A stretch of 64,000 bases of DNA, taken from NCBI RefSeq assembly GCF_032116555.1, contig NZ_CP134949.1, positions 186,001-250,000 on the forward strand, in the 5' to 3' direction. Positions 3,720-53,515 of the stretch are shown in pieces. Source of the DNA: Halobaculum sp. XH14 (GTDB taxonomy: Archaea > Halobacteriota > Halobacteria > Halobacteriales > Haloferacaceae). The first letter of the stretch is position 1; every line of letters starts with the position of its first letter. A model generated the notes under the pieces. It saw only the letters and a program-made list of their open reading frames with translations, ran no database searches and was not told where the DNA came from. The translations under genes were made by a program, and so were the position numbers.

Positions 3720-4110
3720 CTAGTCCTCGAACAGTACGATCACTACTGCTGGCTGTGATTTCTGGACCAACAAGCGCATTCCTACTGCTGACGGTGATGA
3801 AGGCCACACCCTCCCCAGCCGCTTGCGCTCCTCGCTCGCAGGCTCGCTGTCGTTCGAAAGGCGTTTCGCGCCTTTCGTGATGACGAGAGAGCTCCGCTCT
3901 CTCGAACCACGGTGCTCACCCCTCGCGCGCGTCCGGCGGGCCTCCGTGCCCGCCGGCACGCGCCGACCGCACTTGGACGGACGAGCCGCGGGAGCTTTCG
4001 AGGCGGTCGTCGCTGAGGCCGAAACGATACCGGGTGCGACGGATTTGGAGGACTTTCTTGGTGGTCGACACGCGGCCGTCTCCACGAAATCCGATTCCAA
4101 CGAAAAGTTC
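3720..4110. repeat. Dispersed hairpin element, copy A
   Basis: This gene-free stretch belongs to a repeat family seen several times in the window. It starts with two direct copies of CTACTGCTG (3744, 3783), then the block at 3804-3821 whose complement recurs at 33418-33435. A 33-bp stretch at 3816-3848 recurs at 18873-18905. Perfect hairpins lie at 3855-3877 (9-bp stem, 5-nt loop) and 3884-3904 (9-bp stem, 3-nt loop TCC). The complement of about 3870-3915 closely matches the interior of copy H at 53315-53350. The right end CTTTCGAGGCGGTCGTC (3995-4011) recurs at 19049-19065 with one change. It lies between two + strand genes. Confidence 0.7.
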
Positions 4111-8445: not shown

Positions 8446-8605
8446 CAATGGTGACGACCGCGGAAGCCCCCGCGGTTCTCGGCTCGGGGGCCTCGCTGCG
8501 CGCTTCGCGCGCGGTCGCTCACTTCGTTCGCTCCCTCGCGCTGCAGTGCTTGCGTCGTCCGCCTTCCCCGAGAACCGCGGCCCCTTCCATTCCCACCCTC
8601 CGGCT
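8446..8605. repeat. Dispersed hairpin element, copy B, with terminal inverted repeats
   Basis: CCGCGGTTCTCGG at 8470-8482 and its exact complement CCGAGAACCGCGG at 8568-8580 bound an interior of about 85 bp rich in CGCTCG-type motifs and a GCGCGC-TTC-GCGCGC hairpin. Both flanks beyond the inverted repeats are shared with copy H: the complement of about 8568-8600 matches 53212-53244, and 8450-8482 matches the complement of the H right end. The copy lies between two convergent genes and is inverted relative to H. Confidence 0.75.
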
Positions 8606-14739: not shown

Positions 14740-14880
14740 TCGCTTCGACCGCCTCGAAAGCCCCCGCGGCTCTCGGCTCGGTGCGGCCGCTGCGCTCCTC
14801 GGCTCGCTCGCCTGCGATGCTCGTCCCTCGCACGAGCGGCCGCGCTGGCGCGCGGCCGCCGCGCGCCACGAGGATCAGAT
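14740..14880. repeat. Dispersed hairpin element, copy C
   Basis: Bases 14761-14790 are the exact complement of 53463-53492 (copy H), and GACCGCCTCGAAAG at 14747-14760 is the complement of the right end found in copies A and D. The rest repeats CGCTCGCCT-like words and ends in GCGGCCGC-type palindromes near 14850. It is inverted relative to H and lies in the 296-bp space between the samp2 start and the end of the bactofilin-like gene; nothing else is seen there. Confidence 0.65.
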
Positions 14881-53090: not shown

Positions 53091-53204
53091 TCGCTTTCGG
53101 CCGACCCGTTTCGCCCGCGATGATCCCGACCAGCCGACCGGAATCGCACGGCCGGATTCCCCCTGCGACGCGTCCGAATCCCCGGGAGCGACGACGGACC
53201 GGCA

Positions 53205-53515
53205 AACCGACGGGTGGGAATGGAAGGGGCCGCGGTTCTCGGGGACGTTCACGAGACGCACGACGTCTCGTGAGCTCACGAGAGCGTTGCTCTCGTGAAC
53301 GGCGCGGACCGTCAAGCACCGTGGTTCGAGAGAGCGAAGCTCTCTCGTCAGTACGGGAAACCAACGGTTTCCCGTCAGCAGTCGGATTCCGCCGGAATCC
53401 GATGGCATCACGAAAATCTTCGATTTTCGAACGACAGCGAGCGAAGCGAGCGAGGAGCGCAGCGGCCGCACCGAGCCGAGAGCCGCGGGGGCGTCCGCGG
53501 TCATCACTACGTTAC
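53205..53515. repeat. Dispersed hairpin element, copy H (longest hairpin train)
   Basis: Terminal inverted repeats CCGCGGTTCTCGG (53230-53242) and CCGAGAGCCGCGG (53476-53488), one mismatch, bound six perfect hairpins in a row: stems/loops 53250-53272 (9/5), 53276-53298 (10/3), 53327-53347 (9/3), 53353-53375 (10/3), 53382-53402 (9/3) and 53411-53429 (8/3). The outer left 33 bp equals the complement of the copy B right end; 53463-53492 equals the complement of copy C. The 509-bp gap holds no gene. Confidence 0.8.

Follow-up and report, generated by a model that had tools for sequence, protein, structure and literature searches.

Integron attC sites combine a conserved fold with a variable sequence and are recognized as single strands, and HEARO are large folded RNA-like elements that occur in many copies, often without an ORF. 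REPs have a tagged foot and a length of 20-40 bp (PMC3733652), and they are tied to a Y1 TnpA-REP/RAYT gene (PMC3116915, PMC8266576); like the REPINs (BIME), they are dispersed, non-coding and palindromic, often stand in inverted pairs and reach many copies per genome. In Haloquadratum, the PATEs constitute non-coding, palindromic elements of high copy number, whose near-terminal palindromes are related to IS605-type transposons and which are devoid of terminal inverted repeats (PMC3119063). The MITEs and SMR elements of this genus are short and non-coding with inverted repeats at their ends. The copies of SMR are homogeneous, with PATE/IS605 palindromes as the insertion site of the main (A) type (PMC3119063). 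The terminal repeats of MITEs match a transposon. The locus described here shares the dispersed, palindromic and non-coding character of REPs and REPINs, the haloarchaeal setting and high copy number of PATEs, the terminal inverted repeats of SMR elements and MITEs, the large RNA-like fold and many copies of HEARO and the IS200-IS605 omega RNAs, and the conserved fold with variable sequence of attC sites.

The locus lies in a window of 64,000 nucleotides from Halobaculum sp. XH14, between a uracil-DNA-glycosylase-like (UDG) gene and a HIT-family gene (both named by sequence resemblance). An earlier note had described a train of six perfect hairpins with mutually unrelated stems, bounded by 13-bp inverted repeats, which was neither a CRISPR nor protein-coding. 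All six hairpins are real and were found at 53249-53429. Their number is far above that of shuffled sequence: when hairpins with stems of 8 bp or more are counted, 53205-53515 holds 6, as against a mean of 0.054 and a maximum of 1 in 1000 dinucleotide shuffles, and the runner-up among 205 tiles of 311 bp in the window holds 3. The RNA fold of 53211-53505 reached z = -6.8. A repeat search gave no array of regularly spaced near-identical direct repeats, and the element encodes no protein. The flanking inverted repeat is present but short of perfection, with 12 of 13 positions complementary and one G.T (CCGCGGTTCTCGG / CCGAGAGCCGCGG), and the stems are not all unrelated, as hairpins 1 and 2 have TCACGAGA/TCTCGTGA in common. 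This flanking repeat is stem P1 of a larger fold, which adds an outer GGAAG/CGTCC stem (P0; 4 of 5 positions paired in the window copy). The six hairpins are not a stand-alone train but accessory cassettes, A with two hairpins and B with four, in one copy of a folded core of about 125 nt, which in the window spans 53214-53500 (Table 1).

Table 1. Features of the element and further copies in the window
Feature	Position	Strand	Remarks
Probable 5' domain, GGATTC...GAATCC hairpin	53150..53212 (boundary approximate)	+	Arms visible in the window and G001, less perfect in G002 orthologs
5' motif GGTGGGAATGGAAGGGGC; GGAAG is the 5' side of outer stem P0	53213..53230	+	Near-invariant in 67 aligned copies
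Stem P1, 5' arm (CGCGGTTCTCG)	53231..53241	+	Partner of 53477-53487; in most P1 pairs both sides change
Cassette A, hairpins 1 and 2	53246..53300	+	Absent from the orthologous core of G002
Hairpin 1	53249-53273		10-bp stem, 5-nt loop
Hairpin 2	53276-53298		10-bp stem, 3-nt loop
Core P2 5' side and conserved joint CAAGCACCG	53302..53325	+	The joint CAAGCACCGCAG hardly varies among the aligned copies
Cassette B, GTGGTTCG-hairpin-TCAGTA-hairpin-TCAGCAG-hairpin-TGGCATCA-hairpin-AACGACAG	53321..53436	+	Four hairpins; absent from the G002 ortholog
Hairpin 3	53327-53347		9-bp stem, 3-nt loop
Hairpin 4	53353-53375		10-bp stem, 3-nt loop
Hairpin 5	53382-53402		Stem of 10 bp (1-nt loop) or 9 bp (3-nt loop)
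Hairpin 6	53411-53429		8-bp stem, 3-nt loop
Remnant of core P3 hairpin (AGCGAGCGAAGCGAGCGAGG)	53436..53453	+	From sequence and alignment
Conserved joint CGAGGAGCGCAG and P2 3' side	53450..53474	+	GCACC/GGAGC stem, conserved A.A mismatch, compensatory variants
Stem P1, 3' arm (CGAGAGCCGCG)	53477..53487	+	Pairs with 53231-53241
3' motif GGGGCGTCCGCGG (family form GGGGCTTTCGAGG / GGGGCTTCCGCGG), 3' side of P0	53488..53500	+	Compensatory change at one P0 pair
Second intact core copy	8458..8596	-	Covariance model 88.6 bits
Recombined copy, core 3' half joined to the upstream domain	14752..14853	-	
Degenerate copy, two-hairpin form of cassette B in 5' domain	3790..4015	.	From sequence; 3-hairpin tile at 3733

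In the aligned own-genome matches, the core begins with GGTGGGACTGAAAGGGGC and finishes with GGGGCTTTCGAGG, and its order is 5' GGTGGGACTGAAAGGGGC, P1, P2, joint CAAGCACCGCAG, a variable hairpin, joint CGAGGAGCGCAG, P2', P1', GGGGCTTTCGAGG 3'. The P1 arms stand about 80-280 nt apart; cassette A lies between P1 and P2, and cassette B is inserted after AGCACCG. Upstream of the core, the 5' domain is of two kinds, one a hairpin of the GACTACC/GGTAGTC type and the other a longer domain that ends in GAGGCTGGGGAGG and a TGCGG-rich linker. Among the equivalents of the 5'-domain hairpin in other copies, GACTACC/GGTAGTC alternates with GACACCC/GGGTGTC, as judged by eye. The TGCGG-repeat linker of the long copies is variable in length (GGTGCGGTGCGG...GGTGGGTGGG), precedes GGTGGGACTG (e.g., at 1500-1540 of L014) and represents a possible G-quadruplex.

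Within its own genome the element is abundant. With 411 bases around the block as query, 91 partial matches were obtained at about 40 places, and 116 5' ends with at most two mismatches were counted (62 forward, 54 reverse), while a reversed-pattern control gave 0. The search for further copies with both ends, which the earlier note had made decisive, yielded many of them, and nearly all of the 100 own matches listed lie on the main contig. No hairpin with a stem of 8 bp or more occurs in 50 of 65 own-genome copies; a cassette-A-like extension is present in 11 of the 65 and cassette B in 9. The copies are dispersed, often as divergent head-to-head pairs, for which L159, L043, L044, L036 and L013 are examples in the own genome and L104, L124 and L130-L133 in other genera; in some genera a semi-palindromic spacer of about 30 bp is all that separates two head-to-head cores. 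According to a simple ORF caller, and hence approximately, the gene context was ++ in 53, -- in 38, +- in 35 and -+ in 35 of 161 cases, which amounts to a weak orientation bias.

Conservation of the fold was assessed with 67 cores from many genera and 24 hand-assigned pairs. Standard pairs made up 90.2% in these cores as compared to 75.0% after shuffling, and covarying pairs across divergent copies, a defining feature of a structured non-coding RNA family, were found in that both sides vary in 18 of the 24 pairs, which none of 500 shuffles reproduced. The covariation score was 0.375 versus 0.117 for shuffled alignments (0 of 500) and 0.037-0.124 for slid-structure controls, where the slid comparison leans towards the hand structure, as this was derived from the same sequences, and the shuffles ignore relatedness. 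At one P0 pair, A-U is replaced by G-C in 10 of 67 copies, and no copy has a mixed pair at that position. The joints hardly vary, and the A.A mismatch of the GCACC/GGAGC stem is likewise kept. Structure is thus kept while sequence changes, as had been surmised from the hairpin architecture: pairs co-vary and joints stay nearly invariant. Mismatches in P1 comprise 73 G.T versus 42 A.C (20 versus 4 in distant genomes), an excess that favors the + strand as the predicted folding single strand; by minimum-free-energy z-score the + strand is not favored (-3.98 versus -4.56). A subfamily represented by L276 (G094, genus g14) carries a CAAAG/CTTTG outer stem, a compensatory change of the first P0 pair, and has at least 24 matches in most genomes of genus g14.

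A covariance model built from the 67-core alignment had matches in 108 of 146 genomes of the Halobacteriales, representing 43 of 56 genera, with copy counts per genome that are lower bounds, given that at most 24 candidates were scored in each; an exact 17-mer occurs in 20 of 28 genera of the family, or 50 of 148 genomes. Copy number is very uneven between genera. Ca. Halobonum tyrrellensis and Halomicroarcula sp. SYNS111 are among the carriers, and a plasmid of Halobaculum halophilum bears a related sequence. Rfam gave no credible match at gathering thresholds or at E<=10, the exact 17-mer had no copy in IMG/VR, phage records gave no match, and plasmids gave partial matches at most, in haloarchaeal plasmids. 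Cassette A (window 53246-53307) matches such plasmids over its own length only (NZ_CP082287.1, 233924-233985; L279) and may, by this match, be an independent hairpin-pair repeat. No description of the motif was found in the literature searched, which included few subscription papers. The family is a previously uncatalogued, folded RNA-like DNA element that extends across most of the Halobacteriales.

Comparison of orthologous sites illustrates how the copies change. At the locus in the window, congener G002 has the core and none of the six hairpins, and congener G001 has a truncated copy; the UDG-HIT gap of Ca. Halobonum tyrrellensis holds another copy, while element-free gaps of 59-91 bp occur in Halobaculum, Halegenticoccus, Halogranum and Haloprofundus. 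The expectation that interior hairpins differ between copies and species is borne out by the window copy and its G002 ortholog, between which hairpin cassettes were gained or lost at fixed points inside the core. Modules recur at unlinked places: the longest exact match of the window copy, 74 nt, is with the unlinked copy L012, 33 of 65 own copies have an exact 40-mer in common with another copy, near-identical cores with different 3' flanks occur at unlinked loci (e.g., L024/L030, 98.4%), and 19 copies of G016 include 27 pairs that are more than 90% identical. Of 40 copies examined in G001, at least 10 share a site with an own copy, as judged from both flanks, and for 9 one flank matches, a lower bound that covers part of the 116 own copies; movement is hence slow. 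Averaged over best-matching pairs at shared sites, identity is about 92% in the end motifs and about 70% in the P1 arms, which nevertheless are mostly complementary, and both arms were replaced together at orthologous sites such as L014/L200. At several sites a gene in the congeners stands opposite an element in the own genome, with gene-like DNA of about 0.6-2 kb (L143/L263,L264; L140/L265,L266; L135/L258; L144/L262); such gene-replaced sites are possible deletion-coupled insertions or recombination breakpoints. Neither a clean empty site nor a target duplication was found at L135, L140, L143, L144 and L156 relative to the congeners, these sites being rearranged or gene-replaced.

A non-autonomous dispersed element, one of the earlier proposals, agrees with the 116 5' ends in the genome and the lack of an encoded protein. 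Slightly better than even, in our estimation, are the chances that it is an old Halobacteriales element, spread in trans by an enzyme reading a folded strand and now mainly reshuffled by recombination. A trans-acting enzyme would have recognized the folded strand (single-stranded RNA or DNA) via the near-invariant joints and thereby spread the copies; these would later have been reshuffled among each other by homologous recombination and gene conversion, which moved cassettes and at times swapped both arms of a stem together, and the six hairpins would represent accessory extensions tolerated by the core. This reading draws on the many 5' ends, the spread of model matches over the order, the covarying pairs, the cassette-free core of G002, the near-identical cores and modules at unlinked loci, and the sites that hold an element here but a short gap or a gene in relatives; it is weakened by the lack of Y1_Tnp and RVT_1 matches, the lack of a clean empty site and of a target duplication at the loci compared, the sites shared with G001, the near-confinement of the listed copies to the main contig and the absence of the exact 17-mer from IMG/VR. 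The proposed hotspot for making new hairpins holds insofar as cassettes are gained, lost and common to copies; several of them, however, are existing modules identical at other loci and no freshly formed palindromes.

The nearest described kinds are REPINs, PATEs, SMR elements and the omega/HEARO RNAs, and the features tested for REPINs and PATEs, and the fixed terminal repeats of MITEs, were not found. Unlike REPs and REPINs, the core is about 125 nt long, has several stems and joints and, in its alignment, no GTAG or CGTC tag at a fixed place; the Y1_Tnp domain (PF01797) expected of their partner had no match in G000, G001, G002 and G069, though all are copy-rich. Against a PATE, P0 and P1 join the element ends and the main stem varies between copies, and Y1_Tnp is absent from the own genome. 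Against a MITE, the P1 arms vary from copy to copy in a compensatory manner, and only GAAAG/CTTTC is common to both ends. In contrast to HEARO and omega RNAs, the element has no Rfam match, and no IscB/TnpB neighbor was noticed in an unsystematic look; in contrast to attC sites, its copies are single or divergent pairs rather than cassette arrays. RVT_1 (PF00078) had no match in 20 genomes tested, including high-copy ones, which speaks against a reverse-transcribed element such as a group II intron derivative or a retron. Neither an IS200/605 Y1 transposase nor an RVT_1 reverse transcriptase was found as mover in the own genome and two congeners, and since both domains are absent, movement of the IS200/605, RAYT or RVT_1 type is unlikely there at present.

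The main rival to a dispersed element is a host-functional structured RNA family, or a domain in longer transcripts, selected at many loci with dispersal as a by-product, which we regard as possible though on the unlikely side. It would account for the contrast at orthologous sites between well-kept end motifs and diverged, still complementary P1 arms, for unpaired joints that are near-invariant across 43 genera, for the position of most copies, among the matches listed, on the main chromosome, and for the G.T excess in P1, which is expected if the + strand folds; yet the weak orientation bias, the uneven copy number, the lack of a + strand advantage in the z-score and the fact that a promoter was seen upstream of none of the inspected copies speak against it. 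A bolder reading, a pan-haloarchaeal, undescribed putative RNA class with tens to more than 100 copies per genome, its own protein partner and peripheral cassettes exchanged like domains, is put forward tentatively and is rather unlikely.

Neutral repeats, whose palindromes were perfected by template switching or gene conversion without selection on a folded molecule, appear improbable. The perfect hairpins with tiny loops, the modules swapped between copies and the joint replacement of both arms, as at L014/L200, are what such a process would leave, but palindrome correction predicts the opposite of joints that are more conserved than stems, and the A.A mismatch conserved inside the P3 stem, the distance between the P1 arms and the surplus of G.T over A.C argue likewise against it. 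The transcript-end structure proposed earlier, a terminator or 3'-end processing structure, has to be given up almost entirely: the hairpins are very stable and ++ is the commonest gene context, but otherwise all contexts occur, many copies are antisense to genes or between divergent genes, and a T-run follows the 3' motif in none of the inspected copies. A riboswitch was likewise rejected for the weak orientation bias.

Taken together, a large covariation-supported family of very high copy number, placed outside Rfam, extends across an archaeal order. As neither a Y1 transposase nor an RVT_1 reverse transcriptase was detected in several of the genomes that carry most copies, it points to another route of spreading or to a large unrecognized RNA family. 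Tractable organisms carry the family, and the three-species comparison constitutes a ready system to follow how hairpin modules are gained and lost at fixed positions.
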